DNA from: Fertoeibacter niger
GTDB lineage: Bacteria; Pseudomonadota; Alphaproteobacteria; Rhodobacterales; Rhodobacteraceae
DNA: 64,000 bases
Direction: 5' to 3'
NCBI RefSeq assembly: GCF_009380135.2
Contig: NZ_WHUT02000002.1
Coordinates: 62,001-126,000 of the forward strand
Shown: positions 13,932 to 48,625 of the stretch, piece after piece
Layout: each line of letters begins with the position of its first letter
Position numbering within the stretch: the stretch's first letter is position 1
Position numbers and translations under genes: made by a program
The notes under the pieces: model-generated
Databases searched by the model: none
What the model was told of the DNA's origin: nothing
Seen by the model: only the letters and a program-made list of their open reading frames with translations

Positions 13932-15406
13932 CTGTTCTCTCCCTTGGTCTTGGCAAAGCCCGGCGCGCGCAGGGCTTCGACGGTCTCGCGCAGCACCCGC
14001 TCGGCGCCGCTGTCCAGCGCCGCCTTTTCCGCCGCATCGCGCAGGGTGCGCGCGGCGCTGATCCGCGTCAGGATCGGGTGTTCCTCGACAATCCGGTCAA
14101 GGGCGGCTTGCGCATCGGCATCCCAGGGGAAATCGCGGCGCAGGGTTGTGGGCGTGGCGGCGGCGCTGTCCATCTCGGTGCCCAGCGGCAGAATGTGGAA
14201 CAGCGCGTCGAACAGGGCATTGCAGACCTCCTGCAAGATCCAGACCGCGCCGGAATAGCCCATTACCGGGCTGCCGGTGTGACGGCGGATCGCAGCCCCC
14301 GGAAAGCTGGCGGCGATGAAGCTGGGCTGCGGGCCGAAGCCCTTTTTCAGCTCGGCCAGATACATCTTCTCGTTGATCGACCCCATGACGATCAGCGGCC
14401 GGTGCTGGGCGATCAGCGCGCGCACCGCCTCGTTGTTGGTCTTTTTCCCACGCAGCCGCGCCACGGCAAAGGCGCAGGGCAGCCCCAGATCGGTTTCCAG
14501 ATAGTTGCGGATGCCGCGCGCATAGGTCTCGGTCGCCACGATGGCGAAATTCGCCGTGCCAAAGAAATCCTGCGTCACGCTGCGCCACAGATCCCACACC
14601 GGCTTCAGCGTCGAATGCTTTTCGCGCTCGATGAAGGGTTCCACATCCAGCGACAGCATCTCGCCCAGCTTGCGCAGGAAGGCGGTCGTGCTCTCCAGCC
14701 CGATGGGGGCCTGCAGATAGGGCTTGCCCAGAACCTCGGCCAGACCCCGGCCGAATTCGCGATACATGCAGATGTTCACATCGGCATTCACCAGATTGCG
14801 CATCTCGGCCACATGCGCGCCCAGCGGCAGCACCATGTTCACCTCGGCCCCGATGCCCTCAACCAGACGGCGGATCTCGTGCAGATCCGAGGCCATGTTG
14901 AACACGCCATACATCGGCCCCAGGATGTTCACGCGGGGCTTTGCCCCTTCGGTGCGCTTGGCCTCCTGCGGCATGCGGCCCTTGGTCATGCCGAATTCGG
15001 TGAAGATCCAGGTCATCGCCCGGTCGGCGCATTCCCACTGATCCTCGTCAATCGTGCGCGGCAGAAAGCGCTGGATGTTGGTGCCCATCGGCGTGACACC
15101 ACCGCCGATCATCTCGGCAATCGACCCCGTCACCACCACCGCAGGCAGCGCTGGATCAAGCGTTTTCCACGCCCGCCGCATCGCACCTTCGGTGCCGTCG
15201 CGGCCCAGTTCCTCTTCGCCCAAACCCGTCACCACGATGGGCAATTCATGCGGCGGCAACCCGTCGGTGTAATGCAGCACCGATGTCACCGGCAGGTTCT
15301 CGCAGCCCACCGGCCCGTCGATCACCACCTGCAACCCCTTGACGGCGCAAAAGGCATAGATCGCGCCCCAATAACCGCCCGCCCGGTCATGATCCTGCAC
15401 TAGCAT
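13928..15406 (-). CDS. bchZ: Chlorophyllide a reductase subunit Z
   Basis: Catalytic-component subunit (NifK-like) of chlorophyllide a reductase, which reduces ring B to make the bacteriochlorin. It is 492 residues. A conserved N-terminal segment contains [19 protein letters not shown], whose Cys sits at the cluster region. Other landmarks are [25 protein letters not shown] and [24 protein letters not shown]. It works with BchX and BchY encoded just upstream. Unlike the other joints in this operon, bchY and bchZ are separated by 97 bases carrying a hairpin repeat. Confidence 0.97.
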
Positions 15407-15430
15407 GAGGCAGCCCCCCTGCCCGCTCTT

Positions 15431-15481
15431 TCCAGAGACAAATATCCTCGGGGGGTCCGGGGGGCAGACAGCCCCCCGGCT
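15431..15481. repeat. GC-rich intergenic hairpin repeat, copy 2, inside bchY-bchZ
   Basis: AAATATCCTCGGGGGG is followed by a 9-bp stem, CCGGGGGGC/GCCCCCCGG (15457-15479), with the same AGACA loop as the copies at 2228 and 48574. In the plus orientation it matches those copies, but here it lies antisense to the genes and within an operon, so it may attenuate or process the bchY-bchZ transcript. Confidence 0.85.
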
Positions 15482-15503
15482 CCGGCCATTGCGAAAAGAC
15501 GCG

Positions 15504-17075
15504 TCATATCATCTCCTCCGCCTTCGCCGCCCGGGCCGCCTTGTCCAGTTTCTTTTGGTGCACCGCGCGGAAATCGGGGCGCAGGTTGGGGCTGCCTTCC
15601 CAGATGCCCGCCGTGTCGCCCCTGCCCACGCCTTCAAAGAAGCCGCGCATCCGGCTCATGCGGTCGCGGTTGCCGATGGCGGCGTTCACCACATCGGCCA
15701 GGCTCCCCGCCCCGGCCGGCCCCATCAGCGGGCGCGCCGAAATCAGGTTGGTGAAGTAAAGCGCCGGGATGCCCAGTTCCTTGCCCTTCTGCACCACCGG
15801 CGTTGTGCCGATGGCCAGATCGGGTTGGAACCCTTCCATCGCCGCGCAGTCATCTTCCAGACTGGCGCGGAATTTCACCGCCACGCCGCGCGCGGTCAGC
15901 CAGTCCAGATCCGGCGCCGACCATTCGCTTTTCGCGCAGGCCGTCCCCACATAGGGCACCTCCGCGCCGCTTTCGATCAGCAGGCGGGCCACCAGCAGTT
16001 CCGACCCTTCATAGCCGGAAATCGTGATGCGCCCGTGGATCGGCTTGGCCGCAAGTGCTGCCCGGATGCCGGGCAGGAACGCGTTCTGCGCCGCCGCCAC
16101 ACGTTCCGCCGAAATCCCGAAAGCCTCGCCAATCGCCGCCAGCCAGGCCGCCGTGCCGTCATGGCCGACCGGGGCCGACCCCACCACCTTGCGCCCGGCA
16201 TTGCGGAACTCGCGCACCGCCGCCGTGTAGAACGGGTGGATCGCCGCCACCACGTCGCAATCCAGCGCGGCATACAACTCACGCCACTCGCGGCACGGCA
16301 CCACAGGCCCGGCGGCCAGACCCATGGGCGCCAACAGCGCGCCGATCATCATCGGATCCGCCGGAAACATCTCGCCCAGCAACGCCACGGTGGGGCGGTC
16401 GCCCCGTCCCTGCGCGGGCGATGCCACCGGCCCCGCCTCGATCTCGGCCCGGGCGTATTTCAGCATGGCACCGGCCAGCACATCCTTCGCCTCGGCATGC
16501 GTCGGGATACCAAAGCCCGGAACGTCGATACCCACGATGCGCACACCGTTGATTTCATTGGGCAGCAGCTTCAGCGGCACACCGGATGCCGTGGGCACGC
16601 AGAGGTTCGTGACCACCACCGCATCATACCGGTCCGGGTCGGCCAGTTCATGCACCGCATCGCGGATGTCCTCGAACAGCTTGCCCGTCACCAGCGTCTC
16701 AGAGTTGAACGGCACATAGCCCACTGACCGGCGCGCCCCGTAGAAATGGCTGACAAAGGTCAGGCCATAGACGCAACAGGCAGAGCCTGACAGCACCGTC
16801 GCCACCCGCCGCATCCTGAGACCCACGCGCAAAGACCCAAAGGCCGGGCACATCGACTGCGGCTTGTCATGCGGGCCGGTCGGGTAATCGGCGGCATAGC
16901 CATCCAGCAGTTCGGAATTGCCCGCAGCGCGCGCCGCAGCCTCCATCCGCGTGGCACCGGAATGACAGCCCAGCCCATCCATCGGGGCATCACCGGTCAG
17001 GGGTGCCAGCTCATCCTGCGGCACCTCCAGCAGAGGTGCGGCATGGGCGCTGTCATATCCGATCTCGCCGCTCAT
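15504..17075 (-). CDS. bchY: Chlorophyllide a reductase subunit Y
   Basis: NifD-like catalytic subunit of chlorophyllide a reductase, 523 residues. Candidate [4Fe-4S] ligands are the Cys in [19 protein letters not shown] and [12 protein letters not shown], all in the first quarter, as expected. The C-terminal half contains [30 protein letters not shown]. Its ATG overlaps the stop of a 27-codon ORF (ATGA) and has no clear Shine-Dalgarno of its own, so translation probably depends on that ORF. Confidence 0.97.
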
Positions 17076-17155
17076 TTGGCACCGTTGGGTGCGGGCGGCG
17101 GGGCGAGGCGCTGCAAGGCGCGGTCAATCTGGGCGAGAATGTCGAGGTCAAACAT
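17072..17155 (-). CDS. 27-codon ORF coupling bchX to bchY, unknown
   Basis: A very short frame reading [17 protein letters not shown] then a Pro/Ala tail ending NGAK. Its ATG overlaps the last eight bases of bchX, and its TGA overlaps the bchY ATG (ATGA). It therefore fills the whole bchX-bchY gap without leaving an untranslated base. It has only a weak purine-rich sequence upstream. The peptide may be functional, or the ORF may simply carry ribosomes from bchX to bchY. I do not recognise the peptide. Confidence 0.45.
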   Translation of the reverse strand: MFDLDILAQIDRALQRLAPPPAPNGAK

Positions 17156-18152
17156 CGTCATACACCACTTCCAGCGATTTCTTCAGGACCAGGTTCTTGC
17201 CGCGCATGTCGGCGTCGGTGGCGGGGGTCAGGACAAAATCCTTGCCGGTGGATTCGGCGGAAAACAGGTTCAGCAAACCATCCTGGGTCAGCGGGGCGGG
17301 CCGCACCGGCGGGGCAATCGCCACGGCATCGGCAAGGGCGGCAAACATCGGCCCCCATTGCGATTCGTAGCTGCCAACGATCTGGTAATTCGCCGATTTC
17401 TTGCGCAGGTCATCGTCCTGTGGAATGGCGGCCAGCACCGGGATCTTGACGCTTTCGGCAAAGGCCGCCGCCTCGCCCGTGCCGTCATCCTTGTTGATCA
17501 CCAGCCCCGCGATGCCCACATTGCCGCCCAGCCTGCGGAAATATTCCACCGCCGAACAGACGTTGTTGGCCACATACAGCGATTGCAGATCGTTTGACGC
17601 GACCAGGATCACCTTCTGCGCCATGTCGCGGGCAATCGGCAGGCCGAAGCCGCCGCAGACCACATCGCCCAGAAAATCCAGCAGCACATAGTCAAAGTCC
17701 CAATCATGGAACCCCAGTTTCTCCAGCAATTCAAAGCCGTGGATGATGCCGCGCCCGCCGCAGCCCCGGCCAACCTCCGGCCCGCCCAGTTCCATCGCGA
17801 ACACACCGCCGCGCTTGAAGCACACATCGCCGATCTTCACCTCCTCCCCCGCCAGTTTCTTGCGGGTGGAGGTTTCGATGATCGTGGGGCAGGCTTTGCC
17901 GCCGAACAGCAGGCTGGTGGTATCCGATTTCGGGTCGCAGCCGATCAGCAGCACGCGCTTGCCCATTTCGGCCATCATGTGTGAGAGGTTGGCCAACGTG
18001 AAGGATTTGCCGATGCCGCCCTTGCCATAGATGGCGATGATCTGGGTTTTCTTGGTGGGCGTGCCCTGCGGGATTTCGAGGTTCGGCTCCTCATGCGCCT
18101 CATCGCGCAGCCTCTGGTCAAAGTCCTTGAGATTCGGAATATCCAGGGTCAT
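17148..18152 (-). CDS. bchX: Chlorophyllide a reductase iron protein, subunit X
   Basis: NifH-like ATP-dependent electron donor to BchYZ, 334 residues. The P-loop GKGGIGKS is at residues 43-50, the switch region contains [12 protein letters not shown], and the subunit-bridging cluster Cys are in [12 protein letters not shown] and [15 protein letters not shown]. Its ATG overlaps the bchC stop (ATGA). Distinguished from BchL by its longer N-terminus and by its bchC/bchY neighbours. Confidence 0.98.
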
Positions 18153-35109: not shown

Positions 35110-35544
35110 CTACCGCCGCCCCGCCCGGCGCGTGGTCAGCATCAGGTTGGTTTCCGATGTGCTGACGCCCTCGAAACTGCGGATGCGGGCCAGCACCTCG
35201 TCAAATTCCGCCAGCGTGGCGGTGCCGATCTCGGCAATCAGATCCCACCGGCCATTGGTGGAATGCACCGCCTGCACCGCGGGCAAGCCCAGCAGGCGTG
35301 CCATGATGCGGTCGGTGCCGCGCCCCTCGATGCCGATCATCATCAGCCCGCGCACCGGCGAGGCCGTCACATCGCCGCGCGTCAGCACGGTAAAGCCCGC
35401 AATCTCGCCCCGTGCCGCCAGCCGCTCCATCCGTGCCCGCACCGTGGCGCGGCTAAGCCCCAGCCGCAGCGCCAGATCCGACAGCGCCGCCCGTCCGTCG
35501 CGGCGCAATTCGGCGATCAGTCGGTGGTCGGTATCGTCCATCAT
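35110..35544 (-). CDS. Lrp/AsnC family transcriptional regulator
   Basis: A feast/famine regulator of about 144 residues. An N-terminal helix-turn-helix (DHRLIAELRRDGRAALSDLALRLGLSRATV) precedes an AsnC ligand-binding RAM domain with GRWDLIAEIGTATLAEFDEVLARI. The frame has clustered ATGs (MAMMDD); the GGAAGA upstream favours the second or third. It is divergent from the arginase gene with about 105 bases between, so it probably responds to arginine or ornithine and controls that operon. This is inference from position. Confidence 0.88.
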   Translation of the reverse strand: MMDDTDHRLIAELRRDGRAALSDLALRLGLSRATVRARMERLAARGEIAGFTVLTRGDVTASPVRGLMMIGIEGRGTDRIMARLLGLPAVQAVHSTNGRWDLIAEIGTATLAEFDEVLARIRSFEGVSTSETNLMLTTRRAGRR

Positions 35545-35648
35545 GGCCATTTCTTCCGCCGATTTGCGCAAAGCCCTGTGCAGACCGACCATAAAGCCGC
35601 TAGAATCTGCCGCAAGATGAAATCACTTTCCCCGCAAAGGAGAATGCC

Positions 35649-48573: not shown

Positions 48574-48625
48574 TTTCTGTCCATAAATATCCTCGGGGGG
48601 TCCGGGGGGCAGACAGCCCCCCGGC
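48574..48625. repeat. GC-rich intergenic hairpin repeat, copy 3, between ABC ATPase and permease
   Basis: TTTCTGTCCATAAATATCC, then a run of G, then a 9-bp stem, CCGGGGGGC/GCCCCCCGG (48602-48624), around AGACA. It is nearly identical to copy 2 at 15431 and shares the upstream TCATTTTCTG with copy 1. Being inside the operon, it may reduce permease expression relative to the upstream genes. Confidence 0.87.

Follow-up and report, generated by a model that had tools for sequence, protein, structure and literature searches.

The chlorophyllide a reductase genes bchX and bchY of Fertoeibacter niger are bridged by a 27-codon open reading frame (ORF), a real small gene that has been overlooked even though the bchCXYZ-puf operon is a classic bacterial operon. 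The ORF was studied in a stretch of 64,000 nucleotides of contig NZ_WHUT02000002.1, which is referred to as the window. It is probably a translated relay between bchX and bchY, and comparison with related sequences suggests that in the Rhodobacter-like lineage, to which the window belongs, the peptide it encodes is also under selection. The arrangement is not a product of chance and is seen in about half of the related genomes examined.

The genes are found on the minus strand in the order bchC, bchX, the 27-codon ORF, bchY and bchZ, and the features of the junction are collected in Table 1. BchX, BchY and BchZ each score above the cut-off of their own NCBIfam equivalog model, and bchC was identified by its position and by annotated relatives. 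An earlier note on this DNA had described an ORF that bridges bchX and bchY with overlaps on both sides. This is confirmed, with 8 nt shared with bchX and 4 nt with bchY, and the strand, which the note had left unstated, is the minus strand. The gap between bchX and bchY is 72 nt long. Relative to bchX, whose stop context in the window is GTT TGA C, the ORF lies in the +1 frame. A 29-codon form of the ORF overlaps bchX by 14 nt, and its upstream ATG is not kept among the type A relatives described below, as TAC replaces TAT in 34 of 59 loci. It had also been claimed that bchY has no Shine-Dalgarno sequence. This is true of the window, where pairing of the anti-Shine-Dalgarno sequence upstream of bchY is weak (-5.3 kcal/mol, close to the -5.48 averaged by shuffled type A stretches), but it does not hold as a general rule, since 57 type A loci average -7.18.

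Table 1. Features of the bchX-bchY junction, given as positions in the window.
Feature	Position	Strand	Basis
bchX, chlorophyllide a reductase iron protein subunit X	17148-18152	-	NCBIfam TIGR02016, 429 bits, above cut-off
bchY, chlorophyllide a reductase subunit Y	15504-17075	-	NCBIfam TIGR02015, 743 bits, above cut-off
Small ORF, 27 codons plus stop	17072-17155	-	E = 1e-10 with the profile built without the window; frame-specific constraint in relatives
Longer alternative of the small ORF, 29 codons	17072-17161	-	In-frame ATG 6 nt upstream (17159-17161)
8-nt overlap ATGTTTGA, ORF start over bchX stop	17148-17155	-	Read from the sequence
4-nt overlap ATGA, ORF stop over bchY start	17072-17075	-	Read from the sequence
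Shine-Dalgarno-like GGAAG in the last codons of bchX	17168-17172	-	Position -25 from the bchX end

The related junctions were collected by searching for BchY. A match at E <= 1e-100 was present in 165 of 394 genomes of the family, the best 80 loci were used from further contigs, and 27 of 385 genomes of the class had a match, two of these in the window's own family. The junctions read were from 130 of the 165 family genomes (the window's own genome, 29 loci and 100 regions) and from the 80 contig loci, two sets that overlap. After removal of 15 duplicates and of two loci with odd geometry (L126 and L186), 193 junctions were left; L001 and L002 are excluded from this set. Only exact duplicates were removed, and near-identical junctions stay in it. 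At one locus, L147, bchX apparently ends early and its usual C-terminus is found in another frame, which points to a frameshift, either genuine or introduced by the assembly.

In 103 of the 193 junctions, a +1-frame ORF extends at least 40 nt past bchX and its end overlaps a bchY start by 4 or 1 nt. An ATG lies over the bchX end in 99 of these 103 frames, and in the other four BchY seems to start elsewhere. The +2 frame, used as a control, gave 12 of 193 junctions, none with an ATG, and most of these are cases in which BchY apparently starts elsewhere. The earlier note had held that the proposal would fail if relatives lacked the frame entirely. They do not, although 94 of the 193 junctions have no ORF of such size by strict count, and the small ORF is therefore dispensable in many relatives. 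A cleaner subset consists of 144 family loci in which BchY is aligned from residue 1-4. The gap is at least 40 nt in 89 of them. In 71 of these 89 the open +1 frame extends to the bchY start, with an overlap of 4 or 1 nt, compared to 2 of 89 for the +2 frame. The overlap with both neighbours that a relay calls for is thus present in the window and recurs in its relatives.

In a first sorting of the 193 junctions, an ORF was defined as a +1 frame with an ATG at -14, -11 or -8 that extends at least 40 nt past the bchX stop. Such an ORF was present in 115 junctions, BchY itself was in the +1 frame in 39, and neither was found in 39. The overlap on the bchY start is exactly 4 nt (ATGA) in 97 of the 115. 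Among the junctions with neither, 13 have a tiny +1 ORF that ends on a candidate bchY start (10 with an ATG), compared to one for the +2 frame. Among those with BchY in the +1 frame, 28 have an ATG at -14, -11 or -8 in frame with BchY. These data suggest that many loci retain a start site over the bchX stop even as the sequence downstream of it changes.

The peptides encoded in the double-overlap arrangement are unlike each other across lineages and vary from 7 to 93 residues. The window peptide belongs to type A, which has the pattern M[FLC]DL[DE]xLxx[LWFI][DE]xALxx[LIM] and was found at 59 loci, 58 of which were used; D3, L4, L7 and L14 are nearly invariant across these 58 peptides. Type B is found at 23 loci and has the motif ARPEQ[LI]RRLLxDI, and 33 loci are of type C. 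On the BchX tree, from which L091 and L129 were excluded as short, types A and B are clustered (18 changes compared to 50.7 when shuffled for type A, 16 compared to 22.1 for type B, each with 0 of 500 shuffles as low) and type C is not (29 compared to 30.1, 141 of 500 as low). With a profile from which the window row was left out but which still includes the window's relatives, the window ORF stood out from the 1497 six-frame segments of the window with an E value of 1e-10, and the next segment had one of 0.49. The full profile, with the window row included, gave one significant match in the window's own genome (2.8e-10; the next was 0.1). A profile match at E <= 0.01 was present in 49 of the 394 family genomes. 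In the 31 genomes whose match reached E <= 1e-4, the alignment always begins at profile position 1, and 29 of the 31 matches adjoin BchY; the other two genomes, G147 and G166, gave no BchY position for comparison. The window peptide matched no Pfam family at E <= 1 and no NCBIfam family at E <= 0.1.

The structure of one long type A member was predicted with AlphaFold2. A helix is predicted for residues 4-18 (block means 89 and 83), with lower values for the rest (mean 71.8, pTM 0.31). A Cys-Pro is present in 12 of 15 long type A peptides (at least 43 aa), in none of 43 short type A and 23 type B peptides, and in 1 of 33 type C peptides. We take the Cys-Pro of the long type A peptides to resemble the heme regulatory motif; a motif of this type is absent from the window peptide. 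Other variations were observed at single groups of loci. The ORFs of six loci that are of type B or look like it (L030, L055, L059, L135, L146 and L176) begin with MC.[EQ]C or MCDEC, and most of them have more Cys residues nearby, which may form an N-terminal metal site. Three ORFs of the type A family (L016, L024 and L060) seem, by eye, to contain an in-frame inverted repeat (CCCGGAC...GTCCGGG-like) that reads PDLIRG...DQ[VI]RG. Four type C spacers (L027, L100, L107 and L159) resemble, also by eye, a GC-rich dispersed repeat of the bchY-bchZ gap, and it is probable that some of the type C ORFs are repeats left open by chance.

Selection on the reading frame was studied by comparing pN/pS in the frame of the ORF with the other two frames. 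Pairs of type A loci, which share sequences, were compared over the 14 codons that follow the bchX stop. They gave 0.30 in frame compared to 0.88 and 3.56 out of frame for 11 pairs below 20% divergence, 0.51 compared to 1.08 and 1.88 for 57 pairs at 20-30%, and 0.69 compared to 1.14 and 1.38 at 40-60%. L070 was removed from type A for these tests. For the long type A peptides (at least 43 aa), 66 pairs at 40-60% gave 0.80 compared to 1.15 and 1.03. Type B gave 0.51 compared to 1.08 and 1.30 for 15 pairs below 30%. No codon constraint was found for type C in 20 pairs at 40-60% from 21 of the 33 loci (0.99, 1.01 and 1.01); the 12 loci in which the end is not 4 or 1 nt on bchY were excluded. These ratios suggest frame-specific purifying selection on the peptide in the close relatives of the window, and the support for it is good in the window's lineage. 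The earlier note had left the choice between a peptide and a relay to an alignment of the spacers. The alignment points to both, with a conserved peptide and low pN/pS in the ORF frame only in the window's lineage, and with the overlap kept around differing peptides elsewhere.

Possible start signals for the ORF are found within bchX. One of two motifs, GGAGG or GGAAG, occupies a fixed position (-25) within the Leu-Glu-Val codons of bchX. It is present in 41 of 57 loci for type A, 17 of 21 for type B and 15 of 21 for type C. GGAGG is found there in 17 of 21 type B, 14 of 21 type C and 10 of 57 type A loci and in 9 of 16 ORFs with other ends, and GGAAG in 31 of 57 type A, 1 of 21 type C and 0 of 21 type B loci and in 0 of 16 ORFs with other ends. 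Among the comparison loci, GGAGG is present in 2 of 39 with no ORF and in 9 of 39 with BchY in frame, and GGAAG in 6 of 39 and 4 of 39, respectively. With the loci taken as independent, the pairing energies compared to the loci with no ORF gave P values of 3e-5 (A), 2e-8 (B) and 7e-8 (C), and compared to the loci with BchY in frame 0.007 (A), 1.5e-7 (B) and 1.2e-6 (C). The codon tests treat the loci in the same way, and 20 of the 187 inner branches of the BchX tree are well supported; an independent-pairs test on this tree found only 5 pairs, too few to decide. The Glu codon at the motif is GAG in 90% of types B and C, compared to 61% and 58% in the rest of these bchX genes. In type A it is GAG in only 19%, compared to 50% elsewhere in bchX, and the Val codon is GTG in 89%, compared to 45%. 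The distance from the motif to the ATG at -8 is 12 nt, which is a long spacing, and the motif is absent in 16 of 57 type A loci. In the loci with no ATG at -8 or -11, the Tyr codon is TAT or TAC in a ratio of 25:4 with an ORF (the 4 were judged spurious) and 15:17 without (Fisher P 0.0014); this comparison presupposes that the ATG is needed for the start and no weight is placed on it.

Several other properties of the peptide and of the spacer were considered and rejected. A mimicry of the BchX N-terminus (D[IV]PNLKDFDxRLR, register by eye) is a weak lead, as this segment ranks only 96th of 65,085 places with the type A position matrix. Over the ORFs of the window, the best match to the matrix by far is in ORF 35110-35622, which we presume to be an Lrp/AsnC-type regulator. 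An N-terminal autoinhibition region of BchL is not seen in BchX, according to the part of the report available (PMC7948495). Strong amphipathicity was not found, the hydrophobic moment of residues 3-18 being on average only 0.95 sd above shuffles. A structured RNA element in place of a peptide was rejected, as the one Rfam match had an E value of 0.42 and was far below the gathering score.

Outside the family, none of 25 loci from other families of the class has an ORF of such size that ends on bchY; one of them, L237, is uninformative, as bchX was not found adjoining bchY. At three others (L225, L229 and L233) an ATG overlaps the end of bchX, and a frame a few codons long leads to a possible bchY start. 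Of the other 384 genomes of the class, 11 gave matches to the A1 profile, the best at E = 6.6e-4. Ten of these 11 have only stretches from profile position 3 or later, and in the two matched genomes known to carry bchY no profile match adjoins it. A tblastn search of plasmids with a short consensus peptide gave no match. For 11 plasmid records with BchY, a hypothetical protein is annotated at the match in three. Two of these three proteins, which lie between bchX and bchY, are RLO149_RS23885 (57 aa) of Roseobacter litoralis pRLO149_94 and BWR18_RS20275 (63 aa) of Tateyamaria omphalii pDOK1-4-3. They are like the window ORF in position and geometry, with a start 14 nt inside bchX and a stop 4 nt over bchY, but they are longer, have another sequence and have no annotated function. 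In another plasmid record with BchY, from Roseinatronobacter sp. S2, the frame runs into BchY. Full-text literature searches, at the level of titles and the starts of abstracts and with most subscription journals outside their scope, found no gene in the bchX-bchY gap. The bchY and bchX tags of R. sphaeroides are consecutive (RSP_0261 and RSP_0262) in the available part of one paper (PMC8307010), so nothing seems to be annotated between them in that scheme. A survey of the Rhodobacteraceae gives a gene table arranged by D. shibae, and in the portion available no entry separates bchX from bchY (PMC6052148).

How could the synthesis of BchY be linked to that of BchX across a gap of this length? 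Ribosomes finishing bchX, aided by the Shine-Dalgarno-like motif in its last codons, would start the ORF at the ATG over the bchX stop, and ribosomes finishing the small ORF would restart on bchY via the ATGA overlap. BchY synthesis would thereby be coupled to BchX across the 72 nt. In the accessible part of a study of six gene pairs, termination-reinitiation coupling was nearly abolished at about 20 nt (PMC10666635); a gap of 72 nt would then break the coupling, and with the ORF in place both junctions are overlaps again. In terms of architecture, the case for the relay is strong. In the Rhodobacter-like lineage the relay peptide may have become a conserved short micropeptide, probably helical. 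We infer translation, coupling, an effect on stoichiometry, and a partner or activity of the peptide from these patterns. Chlorophyllide a reductase (COR) activity was obtained in vitro by combining BchX and BchYZ that had been expressed in E. coli and purified separately, as described in the part of that report available (PMC4432870), and bacteriochlorophyll a has been made in E. coli with cloned R. sphaeroides genes, in constructs that may include the spacer, as far as the available part of that report describes them (PMC10443036). Both results make it unlikely that the peptide is an obligatory COR subunit. A role as a regulator or assembly aid is possible. A further reading, which must be considered a long shot, is that the peptide represents an unrecognised micropeptide family that regulates chlorophyllide a reductase. 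Its fuller form would be the long type A peptide, with an N-terminal helix, a linker and the Cys-Pro near the C-terminus (12 of 15), and would sense heme or redox at the heme/bacteriochlorophyll branch and tune BchX-BchYZ. The window's lineage would have lost the tail and kept the helix, and the coupled ORF would make peptide and BchY in a fixed proportion.

The simplest alternative is that only the translation of the spacer matters and that the peptide is a by-product in every lineage, including that of the window. The arrangement persists with unlike peptides of very different lengths and type C has no codon constraint, as this would predict, but conservation is seen in the peptides of types A and B, whose closest bins have in-frame pN/pS of 0.30 and 0.51 compared to 0.88-3.56 and 1.08-1.30, and four residues are nearly invariant in type A. 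We regard this alternative as unlikely for the window. The opposite case is a free-standing micropeptide gene whose product would be a binding partner or regulator of chlorophyllide a reductase or a neighbouring enzyme, and whose overlaps would be ordinary operon packing. The conserved peptide with its frame-specific constraint, the helix predicted for the long member, and the strongest profile matches, which adjoin bchY in 29 of 31 checked, are all compatible with such a gene. However, the overlaps persist where the peptide does not, and COR was reconstituted without the peptide, as far as the available part of the report describes (PMC4432870), which leaves a free-standing gene very improbable.

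A programmed +1 frameshift at the bchX stop would extend BchX at its C-terminus by the peptide. The +1 frame of the ORF and the stop context TGA C of the window fit such a mechanism, but the stop is preceded by varying codons and is TAA or TAG at some loci, and an ATG is kept in 99 of 103 frames. The context GTT TGA C can be compared with the prfB frameshift site, in which the Shine-Dalgarno spacing is 3 nt; the motif at -25 is about 20 nt before the bchX stop, far from that spacing. Hardly any likelihood can be given to a frameshift. That the frame is open by chance in GC-rich DNA and has no function is also highly improbable. A 35-codon ORF in the bchY-bchZ gap of the window (15400-15507, minus strand) overlaps both its neighbours and shows that such frames can occur, but it lies within a GC-rich dispersed repeat and is a useful negative control. 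This repeat, TGCCCCCNGGACCCCC, is found with at most 1 mismatch at 19 places in the window's own genome, compared to 0 for the reversed pattern, and at two places in the window, the bchY-bchZ gap and 48596-48611. For the bchX-bchY ORF, the counts of 71 of 89 and 2 of 89 in the control frame contradict chance, and the conserved peptide and the start signals also argue against it.

A translated relay whose peptide is also selected in the window's lineage is the reading that we consider probable. With start signals in synonymous codons of bchX, the ORF would be a natural and testable relay gene, and such a relay could also explain the balance of the chlorophyllide a reductase subunits. A relay peptide that is free to change in some lineages and held by selection in others suggests how micropeptides may arise from translational coupling.

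Two known systems can be compared with this ORF. In R. sphaeroides, pufK is a small ORF before pufBA that has been suggested to gate ribosome entry, and it is said to act by rare codons and ribosome stalling, according to the part available of a paper that cites Gong and Kaplan 1996 (PMC5725709). As far as that part describes it, pufK is like the bchX-bchY ORF in that it is very short, belongs to the same photosynthesis region and is found just before the gene it is thought to control at the level of translation; the bchX-bchY ORF is likewise a short ORF directly upstream of a gene in a photosynthesis operon. However, pufK sits in the puf operon, and the bchX-bchY ORF overlaps both its neighbours. 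Gene overlaps of 4 nt and 1 nt with termination-reinitiation are common for subunits of heteromeric complexes, as stated in the accessible part of PMC10666635. On that description, bchX, the ORF and bchY share with such pairs the overlaps, the downstream one being of the commonest 4-nt kind, and the position between subunits of one enzyme. In those pairs two structural genes overlap directly, whereas here a tiny third ORF bridges a gap that is too long for coupling.
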